Assembly (NCBI GenBank): GCA_947626955.1
Contig: CANQUB010000012.1
Span: 1-36,288 of the forward strand
DNA length: 36,288 bases
From: an uncultured Clostridia bacterium
GTDB taxonomy: Bacteria > Bacillota > Clostridia > Christensenellales > UBA1242
Reading direction: 5' to 3'
Part shown: positions 1-36,288 of the stretch, in pieces
How the letters are laid out: the number at the start of each line of letters is the position of its first letter
How positions within the stretch are numbered: position 1 is the first letter of the stretch
Made by a program: the position numbers and the translations under genes
Notes under the pieces: generated by a model
Seen by the model: only the letters and a program-made list of their open reading frames with translations
Told to the model about the DNA's origin: nothing
The model's database searches: none

Positions 1-84
1 AGGATGAAGCACAGCGCGCAGCTGAGCATTACGATAGTGGTGATAAAACAAATGAACTTTTTCATAGCCATTACCTCTATGAAA

Positions 85-113
85 ATAATAAGCACAAACG
101 TCAAAATTGTCAA
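85..113 (-). promoter_or_regulatory. Sigma70-type promoter for the minus-strand lipoprotein 2 (across the contig join)
   Basis: Minus strand: TTGACA (113-108), 17-nt spacer, TATTAT (90-85). Confidence 0.8.
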
Positions 114-160
114 CAAGCGGCAGAAAGGAGGAAGAAAATTTATTTCGGAGGAGGGCGAAA

Positions 161-391
161 ATGAAAGACTATGAATATTTCAAAGCGCACCGTGATGAGC
201 TGATAGAGAAATACCCCAACAAGTTTGTTGTCATCAAAAGTTGCGCCGTCGTCGCGGTGTATGACGCGTTTATGGAGGCATACAACGAAACGGTCAAGAC
301 CGAGGCGCTTGGCACGTTTATCATCCAACAGTGTGTAGACGATGACAGCACGGCGGCGCATTTTCATAACAGCAACGTTAAGTTTGCATGA
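161..391 (+). CDS. Small phage protein, DUF5678-like (76 aa), inside repeat R
   Basis: ATG at 161 preceded by ggaggagg; MKDYEYFKAHRDELIEKYPNKFVVIKSCAVVAVYDAFMEAYNETVKTEALG. Confidence 0.7.
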   Translation: MKDYEYFKAHRDELIEKYPNKFVVIKSCAVVAVYDAFMEAYNETVKTEALGTFIIQQCVDDDSTAAHFHNSNVKFA

Positions 392-413
392 GAAACACAA
401 TCAACAAAATCAA

Positions 414-453: not shown

Positions 454-1575
454 ATGCAAAACAAACAACTTCATGCGTTGAGGACTCTTGCGCTAAAGCT
501 GAACGTCAGCGGGACGGCGGAGGTCCTCGATGAGCAAAAGCTCTATCAAGGGAGCTATGGCTTCGTAAAATTGCAGGTGTATGCGCCAAAGACGCAGAAT
601 ACTGACACGCCCGTGTGTACGGTGTTTTGCACTACGGTGGACGAAAGGGGCGTGCGCGTTGTAAGCACCAAAAACCACTATTTGACCTACGTCGGCGAGT
701 TTGGTTTAAAAGACGGCACATACTTGCTGTTTGAGCGCTATTTGCCCAAAGACTTCACGGCAAAGGTAACCGAACCAAACGGGTTGACGATAACCGTCAA
801 TTATATGGACACCGCGCCAACGTTGGGTGAGGACGGCAGCGTGCTATATGAAGAAAACGGCGTGCAAAAGCGCCACGCGACGGATATGCTTGCGTCAAAC
901 GTATATACGACAACCGTCTATCCGGGCGGGTGGAACGACAACGGCGTCGATTTGGACATCAACTCGGCGGAGGCGGCGCAAATAGGCGTAAACACAAGCG
1001 ATATCGCCGAGCTGCAAGCCGAAGCGCTTGAGTTTAAAAACACGTTGGACGATTTCAAAGCCGATTTGCAGGCCACAAAGGATATTGCATTAAACCGCGA
1101 CAACTCTCGTGTGTTCGCCACCGTGGACGAGATGAACGAGTGGTTGAGCGTTCCGCAAAACGCGCAAAGTCTTGCAGTTGGCTCAAATTTGTTCATCGTG
1201 GACGCGGACGCTCCCGATTTTTGGTGGGACGGCTCTCAACCAATCGAAGAAAAGGACACGACGGACCTATCTATCTATTACACTAAAGACGAGGTCGAAA
1301 ACAAGTTGGTTGAGACAAAGCAGCAATTGCGTGAGCAATACGACTTTGATTATTTGACTACAACGCCCGATTCGAGCGCGCAGCGAGTTATAACGCTAAG
1401 CTATAAAGATTATAAAGAGCTGTCATACAAAGACCCAAACACGCTGTATATTGTGCCCGATGAATCTATATCGCAGAACCAAAATGGCGATATACAGGCT
1501 ATTTTGGCTAGGTTGACAGCCCTTGAGACGCGCGTGAACGAGCTTGAAAATCTTATAAAGGAGGCAAAACAATAA
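454..1575 (+). CDS. Baseplate upper protein-like (BppU-N type) / tail fibre protein
   Basis: SD aggagg; N-terminal beta-rich domain, C-terminal coiled coil (ILARLTALETRVNELENLIKEAKQ). Confidence 0.6.
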   Translation: MQNKQLHALRTLALKLNVSGTAEVLDEQKLYQGSYGFVKLQVYAPKTQNTDTPVCTVFCTTVDERGVRVVSTKNHYLTYVGEFGLKDGTYLLFERYLPKDFTAKVTEPNGLTITVNYMDTAPTLGEDGSVLYEENGVQKRHATDMLASNVYTTTVYPGGWNDNGVDLDINSAEAAQIGVNTSDIAELQAEALEFKNTLDDFKADLQATKDIALNRDNSRVFATVDEMNEWLSVPQNAQSLAVGSNLFIVDADAPDFWWDGSQPIEEKDTTDLSIYYTKDEVENKLVETKQQLREQYDFDYLTTTPDSSAQRVITLSYKDYKELSYKDPNTLYIVPDESISQNQNGDIQAILARLTALETRVNELENLIKEAKQ

Positions 1576-3082: not shown

Positions 3083-3361
3083 ATGGCAACAACAAAAATA
3101 AGCGGAGACCTGTCGTTTTTTGACGGGTCTGTGCCAAAGAGCCTTGCAGAAGAGCTGCATAAACTTGAAAAACCCAGCGACGGCATAAGCAAAGATGACC
3201 TTGAAGAAACCATCAAGCAAAGCCTGGATAAGGCGGACAGCTCGGTGTCATACAACGACGTGCAAAATTTGACAGCGGAGCAAAAACGTCAAGCGCAAGC
3301 CAATATTGGGATATCCGTTTTTGTTGATGTTACGGGGTATTGGCACATCAATACAAAATAG
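3083..3361 (+). CDS. Small tail fibre-like protein (92 aa)
   Basis: SD ggaggtg; ends GYWHINTK, matching the end of the previous ORF. Confidence 0.55.
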   Translation: MATTKISGDLSFFDGSVPKSLAEELHKLEKPSDGISKDDLEETIKQSLDKADSSVSYNDVQNLTAEQKRQAQANIGISVFVDVTGYWHINTK

Positions 3362-3375
3362 TTGCGAGGTGTAAA

Positions 3376-4647
3376 ATGAGCTTTTATCTTAATGGAAATT
3401 TTATCGCAGACGGAACACCGTTTTATATAAACGGCACAAAAATAGATACAAAATTATTTCTAAACGATAACCTAATATGGTCGCCAAACGAGGAGGTAAA
3501 AATTATGGCACAATTGGTTCTTAACAAGATAAGTTATCACGGCAGAGGATGTATTGCGGACCTTCCTAACGAAATTACAAAAAGAAATTTTCAAAAGGCG
3601 TTGATTTGCGTAGACCCGGATTTTGTAAAATTCGATTATGTCCAAAACGTAACGAGCGTCCTTGCCACGGCGGGTATATCTTATGAACTCTATTCCGACA
3701 TTAAATCACCATATCCGACGATAGAAAGTATACAACACGGCGTAGAAACGTATAAACAATCGGGCGCGGACTGCATTATTGCTTTCGGCGGTGCAAATGC
3801 GATGAGCGCGGCAAAGGCGATAGGCATAGTCATAACCAACCCCGAATACGCAGATATACGCTCGCTTGAGGGCGTGGCAAATACGAGAAACGAGAGCGCT
3901 CCGATATTTGCCGTCCCCGCCGAATGTACGGCAGAAGAAATCACATACGTCTATAAAATTAAAGACGCTAAAAAATCGCGCATAATGTTATGTTTAGACG
4001 TCAATGCGCTACCTATTATGGCGTTTGTGGATAGCGACCTGTTCTTGGGCGAAAAGACTGTAATCGCCCAAGACGGGATGTATACGCTGTGCAATGCAAT
4101 AGAGGGATATTTAACAAAAGGCGCATGGGAAATGACGGACATGTTTTGCCTAAAGGCTATTCAGCTTATAGCAGATAATTTGCACGGCGCTGTTGCGCAA
4201 GACGCCAACAGCCTCGAAAAGATTGCGCTGGCGCAATACATATCGGGCATGGGATGGGGCAATGCCGGCGTCGGCTTGGCAAACGCTATGGCAGAACCTC
4301 TCGTCGCGATATACGATATGCCTAAGGGGGTTGCTTGCGGCATTTTACTGCCCGCTGTTATGGAATATAACGCCCCTGTAACGGGTGAAAAATATAAGGA
4401 TATAGCAAAAGCCATGGGTCTTGAGGGCGTGGACAGCATGGGACAAGATGAATATCGTAAAGCGGCTATAGACGGTGTAAAACGGTTGAGCGCAGACGTC
4501 GGCATACCCGAGAGCTTGAAAGAGTATCTAAAAGCAGAGGACATTTCATATTGCGCGCAGTCTGCGGCAAACGGAGTTTATACGTCCGGTAACCCAAGAG
4601 AGACCAGCGAGGAAGAAATTGCGCAAATTTATAGAGCTTTGCTGTGA
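3376..4647 (+). CDS. Short fibre-type domain fused in frame to a degenerate iron-containing alcohol dehydrogenase (FucO-like) domain
   Basis: Residues 1-43 MSFYLNGNFIADGTPFYINGTKIDTKLFLNDNLIWS; then MAQLVLNKISYHGRG...AIEGYLTKGAW...GEKYKDIAKAMG...GNPRE aligns along FucO from its start to its C-terminus. Confidence 0.85.
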   Translation: MSFYLNGNFIADGTPFYINGTKIDTKLFLNDNLIWSPNEEVKIMAQLVLNKISYHGRGCIADLPNEITKRNFQKALICVDPDFVKFDYVQNVTSVLATAGISYELYSDIKSPYPTIESIQHGVETYKQSGADCIIAFGGANAMSAAKAIGIVITNPEYADIRSLEGVANTRNESAPIFAVPAECTAEEITYVYKIKDAKKSRIMLCLDVNALPIMAFVDSDLFLGEKTVIAQDGMYTLCNAIEGYLTKGAWEMTDMFCLKAIQLIADNLHGAVAQDANSLEKIALAQYISGMGWGNAGVGLANAMAEPLVAIYDMPKGVACGILLPAVMEYNAPVTGEKYKDIAKAMGLEGVDSMGQDEYRKAAIDGVKRLSADVGIPESLKEYLKAEDISYCAQSAANGVYTSGNPRETSEEEIAQIYRALL

Positions 4648-9107: not shown

Positions 9108-9746
9108 TCAAATATCTCTAATAAGCTTGACGGCTTTGCCGATGACGTGGCAGAACTCTAAGTCGGAGCCGGATATATGTTTTGTCTCATACTCGGGGTT
9201 GGCTGGGATGAGGTCAAGCCAATCTTCGCCCTCTTTATACACTACCTTTTTTATTGTAGCCTCGTCGCCGTTGTATGAAATCACGGCGGTGGTGCCACTG
9301 TCCACACTGTCGGTGCGCAGCACAAGCACCTTGTCGCCGTCCAAAAGCTTGGGATACATCGAATTGCCTCTTACTTGAAAAACAAGATAATCGCCGGCAG
9401 GCCTGCCGTTCAACATCTCAATCGGCAGTGTGATATATTCGCCCGTGCCAAACTCCTCAACTTGTCCGTCATAACCCGCCTTTATTGACCCGATGACAGG
9501 AAATTGCACGAGTGCGTCGGGTGTATAAGAACTTGACATCATAACAGGCGATGATGCTCCCGAACGCCCAAGTAGATAATCAACCGTTACGCCAAAATAA
9601 TCAGCTAATTTTATCACAGTAGCATTATCCGGGTCTCGTTGTCCTGTTTCATATAAAGATATAGTGCTTTCAGAGACGCCAATATCTTTGCCAAGTTGCT
9701 TCATCGTTATTTTTTTATTTTTTCTCAAAATTCGCAAATTTTTCAT
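9108..9746 (-). CDS. Phage repressor, HTH_3 + S24 LexA-like peptidase (repressor B)
   Basis: MKNLRILRKNKKITMKQLGKDIGVSESTISLYETGQRDP...VRGNSMYPKLLDGD...EATIKKV. Confidence 0.9.
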   Translation of the reverse strand: MKNLRILRKNKKITMKQLGKDIGVSESTISLYETGQRDPDNATVIKLADYFGVTVDYLLGRSGASSPVMMSSSYTPDALVQFPVIGSIKAGYDGQVEEFGTGEYITLPIEMLNGRPAGDYLVFQVRGNSMYPKLLDGDKVLVLRTDSVDSGTTAVISYNGDEATIKKVVYKEGEDWLDLIPANPEYETKHISGSDLEFCHVIGKAVKLIRDI

Positions 9747-9747
9747 C

Positions 9748-10383
9748 TCAATAATACTTTCTCTTGATTTCACGTAGCACGCCCAGGATGTAGGCGTCGC
9801 CGTTTTGGAACTCCTGCTGTGATATAACATAGCTTTGCGCGGCAGGGTTGTCTGCCTTGAATAAAATAGATCCATTGGCTTGTGGCTCGTACCGTTTGAG
9901 GGTGGCATATTCGCCATTGAGGCACACTGCAACAATTTGCCCGGGTGTAGCGTAGTTTTGGTGTCTGATGATTGCGTATGACCCCGTGGTGATTTCAGGC
10001 GCCATGCTGTCTCCCTCAACGCGAAGAACAAAGTGATTGCCGTCGCCGTACTTTGGGTCTTCGTATATCCATTCATCAGTAGGGGACTGTGATGTGTTGA
10101 TAGGACTGCCAGCCGCAATCGCGCCATAAACGGGTAGGCGGATAGGGGACTCAAGGGGATAGACGTTCCGTACGTTTGACGGCAGGTTGGCTGTTAACGT
10201 TCGTCCAAGTAGATAATCAACAGAAACATCAAAATATGTAGCTAATTTATTTAATATATCGTATGGTGGTTTTGCAGTATCATTCTCATAGGCTGCATAG
10301 GCTTGCTGGGTAATTCCCAAAAATGCTCCCATTTGTGCCTGTGTTTTTTTTGCATTCTTTCTAAGGATTTTAAGATTATTCAT
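9748..10383 (-). CDS. Phage repressor, HTH_3 + S24 LexA-like peptidase (repressor A)
   Basis: MNNLKILRKNAKKTQAQMGAFLGITQQAYAAYEND...VEGDSMAPEITTGS...YATLKRYE. Confidence 0.9.
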   Translation of the reverse strand: MNNLKILRKNAKKTQAQMGAFLGITQQAYAAYENDTAKPPYDILNKLATYFDVSVDYLLGRTLTANLPSNVRNVYPLESPIRLPVYGAIAAGSPINTSQSPTDEWIYEDPKYGDGNHFVLRVEGDSMAPEITTGSYAIIRHQNYATPGQIVAVCLNGEYATLKRYEPQANGSILFKADNPAAQSYVISQQEFQNGDAYILGVLREIKRKYY

Positions 10384-12279: not shown

Positions 12280-12578
12280 CATTTTGCGAGAGGGAAGAAA
12301 TGTTCAGCAAGGACGTGCTGACCATAAAGGACGTGCAGCAGTTGATGTGCATGGACTATACGACCGCAAGTCAATTCATTTTGCGCGTGAAGCGCAAGGT
12401 CGGAGACAGGTTGCGCGTAAGCGGCAAGTTGCATGTGCAAGATTATCTTGATTATATCGGGGTAGATGTAGACCGATATAGTCGTCAACCCAAGAACAAC
12501 GAGGTTGTGCTTGAGAAAATCGGCAATATAAGGCGTATGCTTGCGGACAAGGAGGGCAACGGCGATGCGGGCAAATGA
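12276..12578 (+). CDS. DNA-binding / excisionase-like small protein
   Basis: Overlaps upstream stop; VLTIKDVQQLMCMDYTTASQFILRVKRKVGDRLRVSGKLHVQDYLDYI. Confidence 0.5.
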   Translation: MTFCEREEMFSKDVLTIKDVQQLMCMDYTTASQFILRVKRKVGDRLRVSGKLHVQDYLDYIGVDVDRYSRQPKNNEVVLEKIGNIRRMLADKEGNGDAGK

Positions 12579-13191
12579 CTATGAGACGGTTGAATTGCTG
12601 TACGACAGCCCCGAATGGCTCAAATTCCGCACAGGGCGACTTGGCGGTTCGGACGCGGCAGCGGTGCTTGGTATATCGCCGTATAAGAGCAACGACCAAC
12701 TGTGGCGCGAAAAGAAGTACGGCGTGCAAAACGCCATATCCAACGACGCCATGACTTATGGCAAGCTGGCGGAAGCGCCTATCGTAGAGCTGTTTGGGTT
12801 GGACCATGCCAACGAATATACGGTATCAACGCACAAGGATATCGTCTTTGTAAAAGGCAAACTTATGGCGTCGGTAGACGGGCTGTTAACCGAGATAACG
12901 ACAGGCAGGTCGGGCATTCTTGAGGTGAAAACCGTTAATGCGCTAAAGGTGTGGACAAACTTGTTGCCGCAACATTACTACACGCAGATACTGCATTATT
13001 TCAACGTTTTGACCGACGCTGAATTTGCGGTGCTGCGGGCGTATTTCAAAAACCAAATGCTGTTTAGGGAGTTTCTTATCGAACGAGCAGATTGTGAATA
13101 CGACATCCGCTTATTGGCAGAAAAAGAGCTTGAATTTTTGGAATCGCTTAAAAACGACAATCCGCCGGCAAGGATATTGCCGCGCGTTTAA
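12565..13191 (+). CDS. YqaJ-like viral recombinase / lambda-type exonuclease
   Basis: SPEWLKFRTGRLGGSDAAAVLGISPYKSNDQLWREK...GKLAEAPIVELFGL...GILEVKTVNA...PQHYYTQILHYFNVL. Confidence 0.9.
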   Translation: MRANDYETVELLYDSPEWLKFRTGRLGGSDAAAVLGISPYKSNDQLWREKKYGVQNAISNDAMTYGKLAEAPIVELFGLDHANEYTVSTHKDIVFVKGKLMASVDGLLTEITTGRSGILEVKTVNALKVWTNLLPQHYYTQILHYFNVLTDAEFAVLRAYFKNQMLFREFLIERADCEYDIRLLAEKELEFLESLKNDNPPARILPRV

Positions 13192-14088: not shown

Positions 14089-15054
14089 ATGCAAAAAGCA
14101 ACCAACACATTGAGCAACAACGGCGGCGAGAAGAGACGTTTGTCGACCTATCTCGCCCAAGACCAAACCAGGAGGAGCCTTATAAACAGCATGGGCGAGA
14201 AAGAGGCGCAACGCTTTGTTTCATCGCTCTGCACCATGGCAAGTCAAATGCCGCAAATTAACGAATGCGACTATACGACGGTGGTTGCGGCAGGGCTTAA
14301 AGCCAACGAGCTTAAACTGCCGATGTCAAACCAACTTGGCTATTGCTATATATTGCCGTTTAAGGACAATAAAAACACGCGGTTGGTGGCAACGTTCATC
14401 CCCGGGTATAGGGGCTATATACAACTTGCCATAAGGTCGGGGCAGTATAGGCGCATAAACGTGCTGGAAGTTAAGCAGAGCGAGTTCAAGGGATGGAACC
14501 CGTGGACAGAGGAGTTATGCCTAAACATGGACTTTAGCAATATAAATCGAGACAAAGAACCCACGATTGGGTATGCTGCGTCATTCGAACTGCTTAACGG
14601 CTTTACCAAAACGATCTATTGGAGGAAGGAGCAAATGCTGGCGCACGCTGCGCGTTACAGCAAGGCGTTTCACCTTAATGCGGAAAAAGGCTTTGCGTCT
14701 TATGAAGACTATGTCGCGGGCAAATACCCCAAAGAGGACGAGTGGAAGTATAGCTCGTATTGGTACAAAGACTTCGACGGCATGGCGAAAAAGACGATGA
14801 TTCGTCAGCTCATCGGCAAGTGGGGCATTATGAGCGTGGACATGCAGACCGCGCTTGAGGTTGATATTGCCGCAGACAAAGCGCGCGAGGGCATGACCGA
14901 TTTTGACGACGCACCATTTTTGGACGTTGATACAGCTGCTTTTGCCGGACAGTCGGACGCTACTCTTGCGCTTGAAACGTCGTCTGAAGCCACCACGGGC
15001 GAAATAAGCGACGTTAACGCAACCGCCGACGACTTGTTTGGGGAGGCGGAATAA
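14089..15054 (+). CDS. recT: RecT family single-strand annealing protein
   Basis: AAGLKANELKLPMSNQLGYCYILPFKD...ATFIPGYRGYIQLAIRSGQYRRINVLEV...GMAKKTMIRQLIGKWGIMS. Confidence 0.92.
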   Translation: MQKATNTLSNNGGEKRRLSTYLAQDQTRRSLINSMGEKEAQRFVSSLCTMASQMPQINECDYTTVVAAGLKANELKLPMSNQLGYCYILPFKDNKNTRLVATFIPGYRGYIQLAIRSGQYRRINVLEVKQSEFKGWNPWTEELCLNMDFSNINRDKEPTIGYAASFELLNGFTKTIYWRKEQMLAHAARYSKAFHLNAEKGFASYEDYVAGKYPKEDEWKYSSYWYKDFDGMAKKTMIRQLIGKWGIMSVDMQTALEVDIAADKAREGMTDFDDAPFLDVDTAAFAGQSDATLALETSSEATTGEISDVNATADDLFGEAE

Positions 15055-22215: not shown

Positions 22216-23922
22216 ATGGAATTTAAAAATCAATATCAGATGAATTTAATATCTGCCGGCAAGACCAAACTATACAATCAAAGCGCCTTATGGGCATACA
22301 ACACCGCAAAATATCGCGCCCTCCTCTCAAATGACCCTACAATCATTAAGCGATTTTATAGAGAGGAGTCGGGCGTTTTTATGCTGGACGCCCACAATTT
22401 TTTTGAGAAAACGCGCTCGTTTTATTACGGCGACGGATTTAATGAAAACGCAGAAGAGTTCTTTGGCATTATCCCGATGATATGCGAAAGCATTGCAAAA
22501 ATGGTGTGCGGGGCGGGATATGAATTTTCGCCGTCTATCCCGGACGACATAAAGCAAAGGCTGCAAGTTATCTTGGACGACAACAATTTTGACACCGATT
22601 TTCCGAAAGCCAGCGTCAAAGAGACGATAGGCTTGGGCGACGCCGCTTGGCATGTGTTTTTCAACCCCGAGCTAAGCAGTTATCCGTTGATAGAGCTTGT
22701 GCCGGCAGAAAGGCTGTTTTTAAAACGAGTGAGCAACAGGATAGTTGAAATAGGCATTAAACAGCAGGTCTATATAAACGGCGAGGCGCAACCTTATGAG
22801 CTGCACACTATATACAAGAAACGCCGCAAAAAGATAGAAGTTAATGAGGTCTCTAAGTGGGTGGACGACGGCGTCGTGCAAAAAATAAAGATTTGGGACG
22901 GCAGACAATATATAGAGAACAACCCGCCGTTGCAGGATAAGATTTTTAAGGCGTACAACCTCAGCAGCGCCGAAACGGTTTTGCCGCTTGTGGATATCCC
23001 CGTCATATATTTGCCCAACACGCTCAATCACGCGCAGTCTATAGACAACAACGCGCGCCCTTATGGCATTGTGTTCGGCCTTGAAAGCGTCTCATCGGCT
23101 TTGGACGAGATATTGTCAAACTGTGTGGATACAGTGCGTAAGAGCTTTCCGTTTCTACTTATCGATGAACAAATGGTGCCAAGCGATTTGCGAGGCGACA
23201 AAAATCTTAGCGAATTTTCAACGCGCAAACACTCATATATGCTGCCCAAAAACGCGCAGGACGCAGACAAGCTGTTGCAACAGGTGCAAGCGAAGCTCAA
23301 TACGACCGAGTTTGTCGAGGCGGCAAAATTTCAGATAAACATCGCGCTTAATAAAGCGGGTATCAACGCCGCCACTTTGGGCTTGCAGTTGTCGGGACAT
23401 GTTGAGGCCGAAGCGACGCAAAACGCCAAAGAACGCAACAGTATCCGTACGCGCAACGCCATTGCAGCCGATTATGAAAGATACATATCAAATTTGTTTT
23501 CGGTGCTGTTGCAATACGAAGATTATATCAACGGCAACCCGATTGCGGTAGATCGCGCCACGGGTGAAGAGGCGCTCATCGCCGAAGACTATCACGGCAT
23601 AAAGGTCGCGTTTAGAAAATACATCGTTGACACTCCCGAAGAAGTATCCGAAGTGCTGGCACGCAAGGTGCAGGCAAATTTGATGAGCATATATGCTGCC
23701 GTCAGAGAACAGCATCCCGATTGGGATGACGAGGCTATCTATGACGAGGCAAACCTCATCTATGCCGAAAAGCAGGGCATGGCAATGCAGGTAGAGCCGG
23801 GCGAAGAAGCTGTTGACAACACGCTCAAGCCTTTGGGCCCGCATAAGGAGCCTGATGACGAGCAGCCGCAAGAAGAGGCCCCAAAAGACGAAAAAGAAGC
23901 GGAGGAAACGACAAATGGATAA
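22216..23922 (+). CDS. Portal protein (SPP1 gp6-like)
   Basis: Position after terminase; 568 aa; FGIIPMICESIAKMVCGAG, GIVFGLESVSSALDEILSN, acidic C-terminus. Confidence 0.85.
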   Translation: MEFKNQYQMNLISAGKTKLYNQSALWAYNTAKYRALLSNDPTIIKRFYREESGVFMLDAHNFFEKTRSFYYGDGFNENAEEFFGIIPMICESIAKMVCGAGYEFSPSIPDDIKQRLQVILDDNNFDTDFPKASVKETIGLGDAAWHVFFNPELSSYPLIELVPAERLFLKRVSNRIVEIGIKQQVYINGEAQPYELHTIYKKRRKKIEVNEVSKWVDDGVVQKIKIWDGRQYIENNPPLQDKIFKAYNLSSAETVLPLVDIPVIYLPNTLNHAQSIDNNARPYGIVFGLESVSSALDEILSNCVDTVRKSFPFLLIDEQMVPSDLRGDKNLSEFSTRKHSYMLPKNAQDADKLLQQVQAKLNTTEFVEAAKFQINIALNKAGINAATLGLQLSGHVEAEATQNAKERNSIRTRNAIAADYERYISNLFSVLLQYEDYINGNPIAVDRATGEEALIAEDYHGIKVAFRKYIVDTPEEVSEVLARKVQANLMSIYAAVREQHPDWDDEAIYDEANLIYAEKQGMAMQVEPGEEAVDNTLKPLGPHKEPDDEQPQEEAPKDEKEAEETTNG

Positions 23923-24538
23923 GGAACGTGGGCGTGATGTAGTTGACGGAGAGTACGGCGTTTGGCGCACCGTGTGTGGCAAGCGAGTTTTTATAAAAGA
24001 CGGGCAAGAGTTGAGCGATGCCATGCTCGAAAGCGGAAAATTCACAAAAAAAGCGATAGACGCTGTTGATGAGAATGAGAAAGACCCCAAAAAGCAGGAA
24101 ATGAAGAAGGAGCGAGGGGTTATTTCTAAGGATGAACTAAAGCAGTTTTTGGGCCCTGAATTCAAGGGACTAAAAGGGCAGGCGGCAATAGAAAAGGTCG
24201 CTCATGAGAAAAAGGGACATGTTAAAGGCGCGTTCCATAGAGAAGATATCGGGGATATTGATTTGGTCTGGGGGACTGATAAGGCTGGATTGCAGCATAT
24301 AATTTCTCGTCGACAAGAACAGGGCATTGATGTTTCAAGCTTTCTTGATGAAATAACAGATGTTGTTGAACACGGAAATTTTGGCGGACCCGCAAAGTCC
24401 CCGGACAGCTTTATATTCCGAACAGATAACAGAAGCGCTGTTATCAATTATACATACAAGGGGAACGACATCCAATATCTGCTGACCGCATTTGCGTCTA
24501 GCGGAGGAGGGCAAGGCAAGAAAAAACCGCCACAATGA
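23915..24538 (+). CDS. Portal-adjacent toxin-like protein with candidate phage PBECR (Barnase/EndoU/ColicinE5/RelE-like) nuclease domain
   Basis: N-terminal GVWRTVCGKRVFIKDGQ; C-terminal GHVKGAFHREDIGDIDLVWGTDKAGLQHIISRRQEQG...FIFRTDNRSAVINYTYKGNDIQYLLTAF. Confidence 0.7.
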   Translation: MDKERGRDVVDGEYGVWRTVCGKRVFIKDGQELSDAMLESGKFTKKAIDAVDENEKDPKKQEMKKERGVISKDELKQFLGPEFKGLKGQAAIEKVAHEKKGHVKGAFHREDIGDIDLVWGTDKAGLQHIISRRQEQGIDVSSFLDEITDVVEHGNFGGPAKSPDSFIFRTDNRSAVINYTYKGNDIQYLLTAFASSGGGQGKKKPPQ

Positions 24539-30199: not shown

Positions 30200-30221
30200 A
30201 ATAAAGTAGGAGGTGCAAATT

Positions 30222-30458
30222 ATGGTTTTAACTTTAAGGGTAAACGATAAAGAGCGCGAGCTTATAGAGAAAACGGCTAAGGTTTATGGCATGAGCATGT
30301 CCGAGTTTATGCGCCATGCTATTTTTGAGAAGCTGGAGGACGAATTTGACCTAAAGGCTTACGAAGAAGCCAAAGCTGAGTATGACGCAAATCCTAAGGT
30401 CTATTCGCTTGATGAGGTAAGCAAAATGCTGGGTATTGAGGACGATATCAAAGGGTGA
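30222..30458 (+). CDS. RelB/DinJ-type antitoxin (RHH)
   Basis: SD aggaggt; LTLRVNDKERELIEKTAKVYGMSMSEFMRHAIFEKLED. Confidence 0.85.
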   Translation: MVLTLRVNDKERELIEKTAKVYGMSMSEFMRHAIFEKLEDEFDLKAYEEAKAEYDANPKVYSLDEVSKMLGIEDDIKG

Positions 30459-30464
30459 TTTGCT

Positions 30465-30737
30465 ATGGACAAGCGATATTCGGTAGTTTTTTCGGAATAT
30501 GCCGTGAGGCAGTTTAAAAAGTTGGACAAGCAAACGCAGGTTATGATTCAGCGGTGGATAATAAAAAACCTCAGCGGCTGCGAAGACCCTCGCGCTCATG
30601 GCAAGGCGTTGACCGCCAACCGAACGGGGCAGTGGCGGTATAGAATCGGCGACTACAGATTGATCTGCGATATACAAGAAGAACTCATCCGCATTTTAGT
30701 GTTGGAAGTCGGGCACAGAAAAAACATATACGACTGA
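30465..30737 (+). CDS. RelE/ParE family toxin
   Basis: YSVVFSEYAVRQFKKLDKQTQVMIQRWI...RAHGKALTANRTGQWRYRIGDYRLICDIQEELIRILVLEVGHRKNIYD. Confidence 0.92.
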   Translation: MDKRYSVVFSEYAVRQFKKLDKQTQVMIQRWIIKNLSGCEDPRAHGKALTANRTGQWRYRIGDYRLICDIQEELIRILVLEVGHRKNIYD

Positions 30738-30816: not shown

Positions 30817-33800
30817 ATGCAAAATTATTATTGGAAAGTGTATTTGTGGAAAGACGGCAAGAGGGGCGACGACCTCACCAAATACGTCATGGCGCCTATC
30901 TTTTTAGAGGATAAGCTTGACGAAACGCTTGATACGGGCGAGATTATTTTAAAACGCATGCCCATATCAACCAAAACGGCTTACCCGCCCAAAACCAAGT
31001 TCCGCATAGAATGCTACCTTGACAAGGAGCACACCCAACAGCTTGACCATTGGGATATGGTTGTTGAACACGACGATGTGGAAGAGTACGTCGGTTGCCC
31101 GGACATCTGCACCCACCGCATACACCTCATAGAAGCGTCCGTTATAGCCCAAGGCATGCACGTTGACAACATAGCGCTTACCTACGAGCTGCAGGACGTC
31201 GATTTGAATTATAAGGTGGTAAATGACAGTTCTGGCGACTCACTAGATGCACTTGATAGAATTGAGGCGCAAGGCAACGGATGGGAACGTATAATACATG
31301 AAAATCAAGTAATAACTAGAGAAATGCTTGATGAAGTGGAAAAAACGGGCAACAATGAATTTGTATATTTTATCAATTCATATAATTATGTATGGCGCGA
31401 CTATGATGATTTAAAGTCATTAAAGACAAGGTATAACGCCTTAAATTCACATAGCATTGAGTTTACAATTCCGACTTTAATAATACAAGGTGCTAAAGAC
31501 GGGGAATGGGTGGACATTTGCGAGGCTCAAACTGAAACAACAATAATTATAAAACATTGTAGAGGTGATGAGATTTTAAGTAGTAAAGAACAAAAAATTA
31601 TTTGTGGGCCCACTAATTTATCTGAAACAACAAGTTATCCCGAATTATATCAAGTAAGAGAAATGTCGGGTCGTCGAGAGTATTATCCTACATCAATAGA
31701 TGGAATATCTTCTTACACTTATCTTGAAAACGGGACTTGGAATGAGCCCTTTGATTTTTCCGATCATTATTCACTCATTGACGGAGGTCCGACTCGTTCT
31801 TGTATATTTACATGGGAAAATGCTCAAGCAAAAAGTAAACGAATTACACTTGAAACGGAAATATTAACCGATGCACAACTTGCAGCGCATGAATATTTTA
31901 AATATGAAATTCATACAAGGGTGTATGATGAGAAAGTGTGGGTGGATGCCGAAATTGATGGGGATACACAGCATGTAATGTTACAAAGGGTATTTCCAAC
32001 TTATTATGAGACGAGGTCGCAAATATGGTACTATAATGGCCAATTTCATGTTTCCAGTTATCAACTTGAAAATACTCCTACATATCACGAATGGGTAAAT
32101 TGCAACGATATTTATTTTACAGCAGATTTTGAAGTAGGGGACACATCAACATTTGTTGACGGAGGTGCATTCCTGAAAAAAGCTGCGCCATATAATTGTC
32201 TACAGTTTTTGCAAAAGGCGTTGCTTACTGTCGACACACAAGTACTAGATATAAGGACGGAGTCTCTTGACGGATTAAAAGACAAATATCCCATATATGT
32301 GGATAATTCAGCACCAGATTATTGGAAAAATCAACTTGAGTCATGTCAGATGAATGAAACGGTGTTTGAGCAAAAAAACTTATGGGAAGTGCTCATTCAG
32401 ATAGGCTATTATCGTCATGCTATTCCGTATTTGGAATTTGCGGAGGATGGGACAGACCGCTTTGTGTTAAAGTTTCATCAGCTTGGCGACACAAAGCAAA
32501 AGACGGATAGTAACACCAAAATAACGGTGTTCAATAGTCGGAATCTATCCGATTATTTCACGCAATATGACAGCTATGTTACCAACTTTTTTTCACCTCA
32601 AAACGAGGTGGAAGAGTGGCTCGTTCCTAAAACCAGCGACAGCTCATATCTTGTGTCAAACGACACAGCAGAAATTCATACTAAGTATCCGATACAAGGA
32701 ATCAAGGAATTTGATTTAATTTATAATGGGCGTTCACATTCGGCATTAAACATGATTTTTGAGAAGGCGGTGTATCAAGTTTTAACGCCTTCAATAGAAA
32801 TAAGACCATCGAAGGCAAGCGCATTATATTATTCTTTAGGGGATAACAAAATTTTAGGATTAACTTATATTCCCCCGAACAAAAATAACGGGGATGACTC
32901 ATTTGCCTTAAAAAATATTTTAAGCTTATTATTCGGAACGAACCCTAACGGGGATATAAAATTTAATGATATACTGTTCCATATTAAATATATAGCAAAG
33001 GATAGCCTTAGAATATCGGAAGTACGCCCAGATATATTTAAATACATGAGAAGTTCTATGTATGAGAAATATCCGCACCATGAGCAGTTTTACGGCCAGC
33101 AGGATAAAATTGTGGACAGCGAGAGGTTTAGCGCCAACCTGTTTGGCAAGCTGATAAGGGTCGGCAATGCCGTGTATCAGCGGCAAGAGTATGTCAGCAA
33201 TGCGCAAGACAGGAAAGAGAGCGGCGACCTTGTTATGCTGGGCGTAGAACCCTACTATGTTACAGCGGTTGAAAATGAATGTTATGCGGACGCAATGTTG
33301 CAAAAGGTAACTTACTCTAAAAACTTCAACCAGCTGTCTAATATTGTAACAATTCCTAGCGAGCCTCGATTTTATGAGGTGAGCGAAAGGTCAGAAGTTA
33401 GGCGAGAAGTCCGCATTTTGGACTTTTTAACATTAACAACCAATGAGAAAGCGCCTCAAAAATCATCGATGTTCATTAAGGATAAATATTGGCAAAATTT
33501 TGTAAGAGGAACTATTTTTGCGGATACAGCATTAGAACCCCCGAATTTTGCTTATACAAGATTTCAGGTCGATAAAAAGCGTAAGCGTGCAGGATGTTCT
33601 ATTCCCGATGAAAAGTTGTTTCCAAGTTGTGAGGTTGAACGAAAAGGGGAAAATAGTATAGTTCCTAAAGCTTCTAGTGATCATATCGATGTTGTTTGCC
33701 CTCTCATGTGTTTCCCCCTTAAAAACGCAATTGTTTTTGAATGGGATATGGACGACAATTTTAAGGCTGGAGATAGTATTGATACTCAAACAAACGAGGC

Positions 33801-34407
33801 AAATGATACACTAGATCAAGCTTATTTTTCGATGACTCCTGTTAGATATTGCGACATCTTTGGGCGCGCTGATTTGTTTAGATTTGGGCTGTTTTATAAA
33901 AAGAATTGGGATATAAATCAAATTCGACGTCTCCCGTTTGTGGACGAGTCGGACGATTTTTTTAATACAAACGAAGTAATGTTTGAATTGCCGCCCAATT
34001 ATGCTATTGCACTTGATAAAGATAATAGAGAGGCATTATCTTTTAACTATCAAATAAATATGGTGCATAACGACCAGTTTTTAACTTTTGCAAATTTATT
34101 TGGATCAAAGGGTAGTCGATTGCGGATGTGTTTATTAAACACGGAGGTTCCTAAGTTCTCTGAAACTGTCCCACTAAAGGAACCAAACTTAATATATGAT
34201 AATGTATCATATTCTTTTGACGAAGGCAGCAATGCATTGCATGTAAAAATCGAAGTCCCAACAGGGATAAATATTAGCCAAGTAAAATCAATTGTTTTAT
34301 ACGAGGAGGATGCAGCATCTAAATATGCATATATATGTAGAAATGTTGCAAATAGAGATGATAATGACAAACTTAAAGATTGGTGGATATACCCAGCTAT
34401 TGATTAA
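30817..34407 (+). CDS. Tail hub / tail tip protein (1196 aa) with variable C-terminal domain (CTD1)
   Basis: N-terminal hub-like MQNYYWKVYLWKDGKRGDDLTKYVMAPIFLEDKLDETLDTGEIILKR; C-terminus homologous to 35270-35752. Confidence 0.75.
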   Translation: MQNYYWKVYLWKDGKRGDDLTKYVMAPIFLEDKLDETLDTGEIILKRMPISTKTAYPPKTKFRIECYLDKEHTQQLDHWDMVVEHDDVEEYVGCPDICTHRIHLIEASVIAQGMHVDNIALTYELQDVDLNYKVVNDSSGDSLDALDRIEAQGNGWERIIHENQVITREMLDEVEKTGNNEFVYFINSYNYVWRDYDDLKSLKTRYNALNSHSIEFTIPTLIIQGAKDGEWVDICEAQTETTIIIKHCRGDEILSSKEQKIICGPTNLSETTSYPELYQVREMSGRREYYPTSIDGISSYTYLENGTWNEPFDFSDHYSLIDGGPTRSCIFTWENAQAKSKRITLETEILTDAQLAAHEYFKYEIHTRVYDEKVWVDAEIDGDTQHVMLQRVFPTYYETRSQIWYYNGQFHVSSYQLENTPTYHEWVNCNDIYFTADFEVGDTSTFVDGGAFLKKAAPYNCLQFLQKALLTVDTQVLDIRTESLDGLKDKYPIYVDNSAPDYWKNQLESCQMNETVFEQKNLWEVLIQIGYYRHAIPYLEFAEDGTDRFVLKFHQLGDTKQKTDSNTKITVFNSRNLSDYFTQYDSYVTNFFSPQNEVEEWLVPKTSDSSYLVSNDTAEIHTKYPIQGIKEFDLIYNGRSHSALNMIFEKAVYQVLTPSIEIRPSKASALYYSLGDNKILGLTYIPPNKNNGDDSFALKNILSLLFGTNPNGDIKFNDILFHIKYIAKDSLRISEVRPDIFKYMRSSMYEKYPHHEQFYGQQDKIVDSERFSANLFGKLIRVGNAVYQRQEYVSNAQDRKESGDLVMLGVEPYYVTAVENECYADAMLQKVTYSKNFNQLSNIVTIPSEPRFYEVSERSEVRREVRILDFLTLTTNEKAPQKSSMFIKDKYWQNFVRGTIFADTALEPPNFAYTRFQVDKKRKRAGCSIPDEKLFPSCEVERKGENSIVPKASSDHIDVVCPLMCFPLKNAIVFEWDMDDNFKAGDSIDTQTNEANDTLDQAYFSMTPVRYCDIFGRADLFRFGLFYKKNWDINQIRRLPFVDESDDFFNTNEVMFELPPNYAIALDKDNREALSFNYQINMVHNDQFLTFANLFGSKGSRLRMCLLNTEVPKFSETVPLKEPNLIYDNVSYSFDEGSNALHVKIEVPTGINISQVKSIVLYEEDAASKYAYICRNVANRDDNDKLKDWWIYPAID

Positions 34408-34924
34408 GAGGTGGAAAATTTGAAAAAATCAACTTCTCTTCATATCTTGTGGTTTTCTCGTATAAAACAATATATCCGCTTGCCTCAATAAAAGTACATG
34501 AAGGATAAGTTCTTTTTATTCTAGTCCAATCATCGGCATCCATGTATGGCATAACATATTGTTCTCTTTGTTCTATAAGGAACCAATCATCTTCCAATGG
34601 CGTTCCGGACAAAAATAAATTGTGATTTACATACATGGTGTGGTCCCCATGATAATATGCACTGAACTTGTAAAATTCAGACGTGCTGTCTTTTTCGGTA
34701 TAAGAAGCGGAAATAGACAATATGTCGTTGGTACCTTTGTAATAAGTTACAGACCAATCTATATTATTGATGGTTTCATTAAAATGATATGTGATTAAGT
34801 TCTGTGTAGGTTTATCCAGTTGCTCCGCATTTTCGTCGGAAGCGCATCCCGTCAGGATGAAGCACAGCGCGCAGCTGAGCATTACGATAGTGGTGATAAA
34901 ACAAATGAACTTTTTCATAGCCAT
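34397..34924 (-). CDS. Lipoprotein 1 (variant mature domain A)
   Basis: MAMKKFICFITTIVMLSCALCFILTGC lipobox; gaggt SD; stop overlaps the hub 3' end by 11 bp. Confidence 0.85.
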   Translation of the reverse strand: MAMKKFICFITTIVMLSCALCFILTGCASDENAEQLDKPTQNLITYHFNETINNIDWSVTYYKGTNDILSISASYTEKDSTSEFYKFSAYYHGDHTMYVNHNLFLSGTPLEDDWFLIEQREQYVMPYMDADDWTRIKRTYPSCTFIEASGYIVLYEKTTRYEEKLIFSNFPPLNQ

Positions 34925-34937
34925 TACCTCTATGAAA

Positions 34938-34966
34938 ATAATAAGCACAAACGTCAAAATTGTCAA
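34938..34966 (-). promoter_or_regulatory. Sigma70-type promoter for lipoprotein 1
   Basis: Minus strand TTGACA (34966-34961), 17 nt, TATTAT (34943-34938). Confidence 0.8.
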
Positions 34967-35013
34967 CAAGCGGCAGAAAGGAGGAAGAAAATTTATTTCG
35001 GAGGAGGGCGAAA

Positions 35014-35244
35014 ATGAAAGACTATGAATATTTCAAAGCGCACCGTGATGAGCTGATAGAGAAATACCCCAACAAGTTTGTTGTCATCAAAAGTTGCGCC
35101 GTCGTCGCGGTGTATGACGCGTTTATGGAGGCATACAACGAAACGGTCAAGACCGAGGCGCTTGGCACGTTTATCATCCAACAGTGTGTAGACGATGACA
35201 GCACGGCGGCGCATTTTCATAACAGCAACGTTAAGTTTGCATGA
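35014..35244 (+). CDS. Small DUF5678-like protein, second identical copy
   Basis: Same as 161-391. Confidence 0.7.
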   Translation: MKDYEYFKAHRDELIEKYPNKFVVIKSCAVVAVYDAFMEAYNETVKTEALGTFIIQQCVDDDSTAAHFHNSNVKFA

Positions 35245-35269
35245 GAAACACAATCAACAAAAACTTCCG

Positions 35270-35752
35270 ATGGCTGTCATAACTCCGAACGAGAGCGACT
35301 GCATTGCTTATCTTCCATCTCCGTACACGATAGGACTAGATAAAGATAATCGAGAGGAGCTTTCTTTCAACTATCAAATAAATCTATTGCATCGACCGAC
35401 GGAGGACGACACCGAGGACTTTATTACTTTTCCGAATCTTTTTGGACAAAAAGACGGCCCATTAAAACTCTTCTTCATGAGAGAACCACAAAGCCTATTT
35501 AATGGGAACATTAAATTGACACTTAATAGCACATTGGCAATTGAGGAGTGGAATACCCCAATTGAACATGATGATATTAATGCAATTGAGATTAAAATTA
35601 CCGCGCCGAAGAATGTCGCAGTTAAAGATATTCAGTCAATTGCTCTATGTTCAGTCGATAAAGATAATAGGGTTACAGCATATATCGTCAAAAATGTTCA
35701 GGGATACTCTGATGATGAAAAATTAAAAAGTTGGTGGATATATCCTGTATAA
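35270..35752 (+). pseudogene. Silent hub C-terminal domain cassette (CTD2)
   Basis: TIGLDKDNREELSFNYQIN...FITFPNLFG...DDEKLKSWWIYPV aligns to hub C-terminus (AIALDKDNREALSFNYQIN...LTFANLFG...DNDKLKDWWIYPAID); no SD at the only plausible ATG. Confidence 0.85.
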
Positions 35753-35763
35753 TAACCCCACGC

Positions 35764-36282
35764 TTATAACTCAAATATTATATTTTTGAGGCATTTGGAA
35801 TTGCCTAAATCAAATCCGACGACGATGTATTGATAGTCAGAAGAATTTATGCGCGGAGGACGGTACTCGACACTTTCATTAGGGTGAATGATTGTGTCAT
35901 TGTTTTTAGTGAACCATGTGAAATATTCGTCATCAATATATGAAACGCCTGCAAACGCAATGTTTCCAAGTGGGAAAGGCATCGGTGAGAGGTTCTTGAC
36001 AATAAATACTTCGAGCTGCTCTCTATTGTCCCACCCGACAAAAGTTACCTCAGCCATGATAGAGTTATTAGAATAAAGTGTCGCGGTTTCACCTTTTTTG
36101 TAAACTTTCATCGGTGCAGGTGCTTGTGATTGTAACGATTCGAGTTGTTCTTGAAGCTCTGATATTTGATTTTTAAGGGCATCAATTTCGTCCTCCTGCC
36201 CGCATCCCGTTAGGATGAAGCACAGCGCGCAGCTGAGCATTACGATAGTGGTGATAAAACAAATGAACTTTTTCATAGCCAT
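35764..36282 (-). CDS. Lipoprotein 2 (variant mature domain B, coiled coil + DUF4352-like beta domain)
   Basis: Same MAMKKFICFITTIVMLSCALCFILTGC signal, then GQEDEIDALKNQISELQEQLESLQS and KKGETATLYSNNSIMAEVTFVGWDN...; promoter lies at 85-113 across the join. Confidence 0.85.
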   Translation of the reverse strand: MAMKKFICFITTIVMLSCALCFILTGCGQEDEIDALKNQISELQEQLESLQSQAPAPMKVYKKGETATLYSNNSIMAEVTFVGWDNREQLEVFIVKNLSPMPFPLGNIAFAGVSYIDDEYFTWFTKNNDTIIHPNESVEYRPPRINSSDYQYIVVGFDLGNSKCLKNIIFEL

Positions 36283-36288
36283 TACCTC
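36212..36288. repeat. Terminal 77-bp overlap with 1-77 (contig circularisation overlap)
   Basis: Exact 77-nt match of window end to window start; preceding base differs from copy 2 (t at 36211 versus c at 34853). Confidence 0.9.

Follow-up and report, generated by a model that had tools for sequence, protein, structure and literature searches.

Phages T5 and BF23 have distantly related receptor-binding proteins (RBPs) and Llp lipoproteins that lack homology with one another (PMC4728585). Llp is expressed early in the lytic cycle and inactivates the outer-membrane receptor, and recombination between receptor-binding and Llp genes is known, as in DT57C (PMC4728585, PMC9586334). In Drexlerviridae, RBP loci with cognate exclusion proteins lie downstream of gpJ, and the separate RBP genes are matched to receptors (PMC8594841). 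The temperate Streptococcus phage TP-J34 carries the gene of the surface lipoprotein Ltp in its lysogeny module (PMC3952083). Orphan rhs-CT/rhsI modules consist of a displaced, start-less C-terminal fragment with a remnant core, followed by a partner gene, and the fragment can be fused to the main gene through recombination (PMC3967940).

We analyzed a 36,288-nucleotide stretch of DNA (hereafter, the window), which is contig C12 in a 1.23-Mb metagenome-assembled genome, and in which a tail hub gene is followed by two units of a hub C-terminal domain (CTD) and a convergent lipoprotein gene (Table 1). As in T5/BF23, a lipoprotein gene adjoins the gene with the presumptive host-recognition tip (in the window and seven relatives), and homology between the lipoproteins of related phages may be lacking. 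Unlike T5/BF23, the phages are temperate and have Clostridia-type hosts, the convergent gene has its own promoter, and the hub protein itself includes the tip. The position after the tail-tip/hub gene is the same as in Drexlerviridae, whereas no separate RBP was recognized in the slot and no matching was found. The locus resembles TP-J34 ltp in belonging to a temperate phage, in its own promoter, and in the prophage surface lipoprotein expected from it; it differs in lying between the hub and the next tail gene, and its lipoproteins have no Lipoprotein_Ltp match in Pfam or NCBIfam. The second unit is like orphan rhs-CT/rhsI in its start-less fragment with a remnant core, its partner gene and the possibility of fusion to the main gene. 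Unlike rhs-CT/rhsI, the tip is no recognized toxin, the partner gene is convergent, the core is 45 bp at 87% identity rather than 522 bp at 95%, and matched pairs were not found. With regard to the invertible tail-fibre switches of Mu and P1, which have inverted repeats and a dedicated invertase, the comparison covered direct repeats, which flank both units here, and the part of the proteins that was scanned, among which no invertase was recognized.

A Circular Temperate Phage Contig

Identical 77-bp sequences at both contig termini give a circle of 36,211 bp that closes inside the repeat R. An end overlap of 77 bp is typical of de Bruijn assembly with k = 77. The anatomy previously read from the letters alone (the sequence-only reading) stands, and the circular contig of 36,211 bp is added to it as a correction. 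In L009, L004, L014, L020, and L023, the hub or the hub/lipoprotein pair has after it a gene that resembles the next tail gene of the window, and this gene order supports the circular join. Because an integrase and S24/HTH repressors (7.6-10.4 kb) occur together with YqaJ, RecT, and structural genes, the window represents a temperate phage. Its hub had no tblastn match in a collection of 50,697 phage records, and the phage family is known here from metagenomes only. Neither Rfam families nor tRNAs were found in the window, and the sole PADLOC match in it was the HTH of a repressor.

Several accessory genes were also observed. A 47-bp repeat, D4, lies in two tandem S24/HTH (CI-like) repressor genes (9108-10383, minus strand), which suggests a duplication. 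An iron-containing alcohol dehydrogenase gene in the tail-gene region (3340-4644, plus strand) encodes a protein similar to lactaldehyde reductase (NCBIfam E 1.8e-138) that is extended at its N terminus by about 55 aa; the parts of relatives that were fetched contained no homologue. A ParE-type toxin and a DUF6290/ribbon-helix-helix antitoxin are encoded between tail genes, immediately 5' of the hub (30213-30737, plus strand); this ParE was not found in any of the fetched relatives. A PBECR1 nuclease-domain gene (23813-24538, plus strand) is flanked by the putative portal gene and the putative scaffold gene.

Table 1. Features of the hub locus and of the recombination genes in the window.
Feature	Position	Strand	Basis or remark
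R copy 2, over the circular join	1..409		sequence identity
lipo2 promoter, in R copy 2	85..113	-	scored on circularized sequence
DUF5678 gene, second copy	161..391	+	in R copy 2
Next tail gene	454..1575	+	similar genes after hub/lipoprotein in several relatives
YqaJ exonuclease	12541..13191	+	PF09588 E 1.5e-19
RecT annealing protein, phage-encoded short-homology recombination	14089..15054	+	PF03837 E 4.2e-36
Tail hub gene, 1196 aa, class A, ends in CTD1	30817..34407	+	fold matches to phage hubs; relatives
Core 1, conserved hub motif DKDNREALSFNYQIN before the tip	34015..34059	+	39/45 to core 2
CTD1 tip, predicted beta domain	34060..34407	+	sequence comparison and model
lipo1, convergent lipoprotein; 11-bp overlap with the hub at the stop codons; L014 homologue	34397..34927	-	sequence
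R copy 1, containing signal peptide, promoter and DUF5678 gene	34854..35262		409 bp identical to copy 2
lipo1 sigma-A promoter TTGACA-17-TATTAT	34938..34966	-	promoter scoring
DUF5678 small gene, R copy 1	35014..35244	+	PF18929 E 4e-5
CTD2, start-less 3' end of class-B hub, begins KLPMAVITP right after R	35261..35752	+	97% to L020 hub, first 64 aa
Core 2, inside CTD2	35339..35383	+	39/45 to core 1
lipo2, convergent lipoprotein; coiled-coil-like start of mature protein	35764..36282	-	sequence
R copy 2, first 77 bp (= terminal overlap)	36212..36288		sequence identity

The Hub, Its Tip and the Two Lipoproteins

The sequence-only reading had called the large gene a tail hub, and structure comparison agrees: a model of moderate confidence (pLDDT 67) gave Foldseek matches mostly to hub or tail-tip proteins of phages and injection systems, the best being the HFTV1 tail (E 4.7e-6). 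In the hub tree, the window hub is the sister of L023. The CTD model had no match below E 0.6 in the PDB, and only weak ones among viral structures, to tail-collar fibre proteins (E 0.01), which is a hint; no toxin domain was recognized in the CTD. The hub tip presumably recognizes the receptor.

The order of the units was read correctly as hub-CTD1, convergent lipo1, R, start-less CTD2, convergent lipo2, and R again over the join. CTD1 and CTD2 are homologous but divergent, as had been claimed (36% identity across 148 columns, E 7e-30). Their cores do lie in the same frame with 39 of 45 positions identical, and share exact runs of at most 15 bp. The core had been taken for a recombination boundary; it is, however, a conserved motif (KD.RE.LSF.YQ-like) that is found in the hubs of relatives and is general to the family, and the idea of a dedicated recombination site was rejected. 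Nor is it the left end of the displaced fragment: the homology of CTD2 starts at K35261, 26 codons 5' of the core and directly at the end of R.

CTD2 is, judged by its sequence, the genuine 3' end of a class-B hub in a displaced position. Only two differences separate its first 64 residues from the hub of the rabbit-gut locus L020; in this pre-core/core part, synonymous change is near saturation (pS 0.94) and there is almost no amino-acid change (pN 0.013), which indicates that CTD2 was functional until recently. The CTD2 tip is far more divergent than its core, and this could reflect selection for another use. The in-frame ATGs of CTD2 have no Shine-Dalgarno sequence visible by eye, in line with the earlier claim that it lacks start signals.

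The two copies of R are exactly identical over 409 bp, as within-genome duplication predicts. Going leftward, the first mismatch is C/T at 34853, with 10 further matching bases beyond, so that the shared stretch starts at the lipobox. The repeat itself had been recognized before; the DUF5678 gene inside it is added here as a correction. In the scanned viral contigs, nothing was found for the DUF5678 protein or lipo2, and in 299 family genomes R and lipo2 had only short or marginal matches beyond the window.

The products of both convergent genes are lipoproteins, and each gene has a promoter of its own; as the earlier reading held, lipo1 and lipo2 share a signal peptide and an 11/12 sigma-A promoter. 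Beyond the signal/lipobox end, their mature bodies appear unrelated, the sole local match covering 26 residues and possibly including residual signal peptide. Searches with lipo1 gave only short or marginal matches in 199 family genomes, and a search with the lipo1/L014 alignment returned the L014 contig alone. No match to exclusion families was found in Pfam, NCBIfam, or PADLOC. By analogy with Llp (PMC9586334) and Ltp (PMC3952083), and from their orientation, promoter, and membrane anchoring, the lipoproteins would probably act in superinfection exclusion.

The Slot in Related Phages

Relatives were collected from scans and genome searches, which yielded 18 hubs with a readable 3' end. A convergent lipoprotein gene lies 3' of the hub in L004, L018, L054, L012, L023, L014, and L020, giving nine hub-end lipoproteins from eight phages when the two of the window are included. 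A convergent transmembrane (TM) protein occupies the slot in L021, L022, L026, and L011 and as the second gene in L014, which shows that two convergent genes can be accommodated; that of L009 is frameshifted. No slot gene was seen in L010, L015, L016, L017, or L024, and L025 is cut off by the contig end. Among relatives, the hub end thus recurrently adjoins a convergent gene for a lipoprotein or membrane protein. In most cases, the hub and convergent-gene stop codons overlap by 4-39 bp. A sigma-A promoter of at least 11/12 lies within 200 bp in seven of the eight lipoprotein promoter regions scored (R of the window being counted once, its copies being identical), as compared with 5 of 1600 shuffles.

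The bodies of the L012 and L023 lipoproteins (genes L012:9560-10048 and L023:9500-10288, both minus strand) match the SecDF P1 head (E 2.9e-12 and 3.2e-17, respectively), and the L004, L018, and L054 lipoproteins are homologous to that of L023. Such proteins could possibly mimic or act on the host SecDF translocase. The tree of these SecD-type lipoproteins has very long branches, and percent identities were used in its place.

Other genes and fragments were seen near the hub end of relatives. In L009 (10147-11170) and L018 (10241-11160), another displaced module, with a second copy of a toxin-gene start and an N-terminal scaffold fragment, sits between the hub/convergent gene and the next tail gene; that of L009 includes PBECR3. 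Near the hub 3' end of L010 (10156-12560) and L022 (10283-11448), an ImmA/IrrE-type peptidase or like open reading frame (ORF) is followed by a TM protein gene; the ImmA/IrrE-type Pfam match comes from L010, which also has a transposase-like ORF.

Tip and Lipoprotein Assort Independently

The sequence-only reading had stated that CTD and lipoprotein vary together, and that related phages in which the two types assort independently would speak against it. Such independent assortment is what the relatives display. Across 13 hub ends, a small sample with manually assigned neighbor families, tip identity was 31.8% for pairs with the same neighbor family and 32.7% for other pairs (p = 0.56); with class C hubs excluded, the values were 41.9 and 38.6% (p = 0.17). 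Individual phages agree with this result. L014 combines a class-B tip, like CTD2, with a homologue of lipo1 (39% over 145 aa of the mature protein, E 5e-36), and the lipoprotein beside the L020 hub, the nearest hub to CTD2, shows no relation to lipo2. The lipoproteins of L023, whose hub is the sister of the window hub, and of L054, whose hub is of the distant class C, share 42% identity over 203 aa; in the hub tree, the longest branch separates these two hubs. The hubs of L014 and L026 are 81% identical in the body, and their neighbors differ.

Thus, joint replacement of recognition domain and lipoprotein, as in the T5/BF23 module, was not encountered in this small sample, and the lack of co-segregation argues against a partner specificity of the Rhs/CDI kind. 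We file the locus under neither the RBP-lipoprotein nor the orphan rhs modules, because co-replacement was not seen and the tip is no recognized toxin.

Origin and Fate of the Second Unit

With somewhat better than even confidence, we interpret the stretch that separates the hub from the next tail gene as a moron slot, in which duplication and replacement left an orphan tip and a second lipoprotein. The slot would hold a convergent lipoprotein or small membrane protein of fast turnover, the lipoproteins usually having their own strong promoter, and the lysogen would most likely produce the slot proteins as a means of superinfection exclusion. The ancestral order was most likely hub(class B)-CTD2-lipo2-R. 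Tandem duplication of CTD2-lipo2-R would have occurred where the end of R and the hub pre-core share a microhomology, after which the hub-attached copy would have been replaced by CTD1-lipo1 via homologous recombination, with crossovers in the hub body on one side and in the lipoprotein signal-peptide region on the other, perhaps aided by the phage's YqaJ/RecT. This order of events, which we infer from the present arrangement, gives the most economical history. Insertion of a class-B fragment (CTD2-lipo2) from another phage is an equivalent alternative that would leave identical anatomy.

The junction between R and CTD2 bears on both the mechanism and the reality of the arrangement. R ends in ...AATCAACAAAA and CTD2 goes on with ACTTCCG, where a class-B hub would encode Q-K-L-P. 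The two were probably joined at a microhomology of about 5 nt. A match of this length is too short for any assembler k-mer, which argues that the junction is real DNA. We accordingly consider it quite unlikely that CTD2-lipo2 stems from a different phage and that assembly linked it to this one by way of R. The contig does close inside R with a 77-bp overlap, and a collapsed repeat would likewise yield identical R copies; however, a k-mer overlap is ruled out as the origin of a junction of a few nucleotides, the gene order agrees with that of relatives, and the small loop ends in R at both sides, so that a mini-circle would itself require a tandem parent.

A stored, swappable tip-lipoprotein cassette, with receptor range and exclusion switching together by recombination between the cores, had been the earlier proposal, and we regard it as improbable. 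The spacings of 1324 bp between the cores and 1358 bp between the R copies are as had been claimed, and core x core recombination does yield an in-frame hub-CTD2 product. CTD2 is open and was recently constrained, the phage RecT could use about 45 bp, and precedents exist in the orphan Rhs fusion (PMC3967940) and in T5/BF23 (PMC4728585). However, core x core and R x R recombination are both one-way deletions and neither restores the other state, so that they do not constitute a switch. The exact runs of at most 15 bp in the core compare poorly with 522 bp at 95% in Rhs, and recombination should take place much more often between the R copies (409 bp, exact) than between the cores (45 bp, 87%), which favors loss of the unit. 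The lack of co-segregation also speaks against the cassette, as does the absence of the orphan tip unit from relatives (several of whose contigs stop early), by which it is not a maintained feature of the family. The sequence-only reading therefore stands for the hub, the lipoproteins, the promoter, and the recurrence, but not for the co-variation or the switch. It is very unlikely that the phage stores a second intact tip and exclusion lipoprotein, both swapped in by one RecT-assisted recombination; if it did, host range and superinfection immunity would change together in a single step.

Within the moron-slot interpretation, the second unit may or may not have a selected role. That it is a neutral, transient leftover, which R x R deletion would soon remove, is a possibility we hold tentatively: it occurs once among the relatives, its R repeats are exact, and its junction is probably a microhomology. 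Both CTD2 and lipo2 are intact, which counts weakly against neutrality, since it is expected if the event was recent. It is somewhat doubtful that lipo2 instead adds a second exclusion specificity with CTD2 as a passenger, in analogy to orphan immunity genes, although lipo2 is intact with its own 11/12 promoter and the two convergent genes of L014 fit such a slot. Lipo2 is probably still expressed from the promoter that it retains, so that a lysogen would probably make both lipoproteins, and virions would carry CTD1 only.

Biological Meaning

In this phage family, a moron slot tied to the hub 3' end is thereby defined, with lipoproteins and membrane proteins that change fast as its contents. 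If these are exclusion proteins, the slot would be a ready source of new superinfection-exclusion families, and the SecD P1-head types may point to a host factor for DNA entry. The orphan tip represents a type of intermediate through which the exchange of hub tips may proceed.
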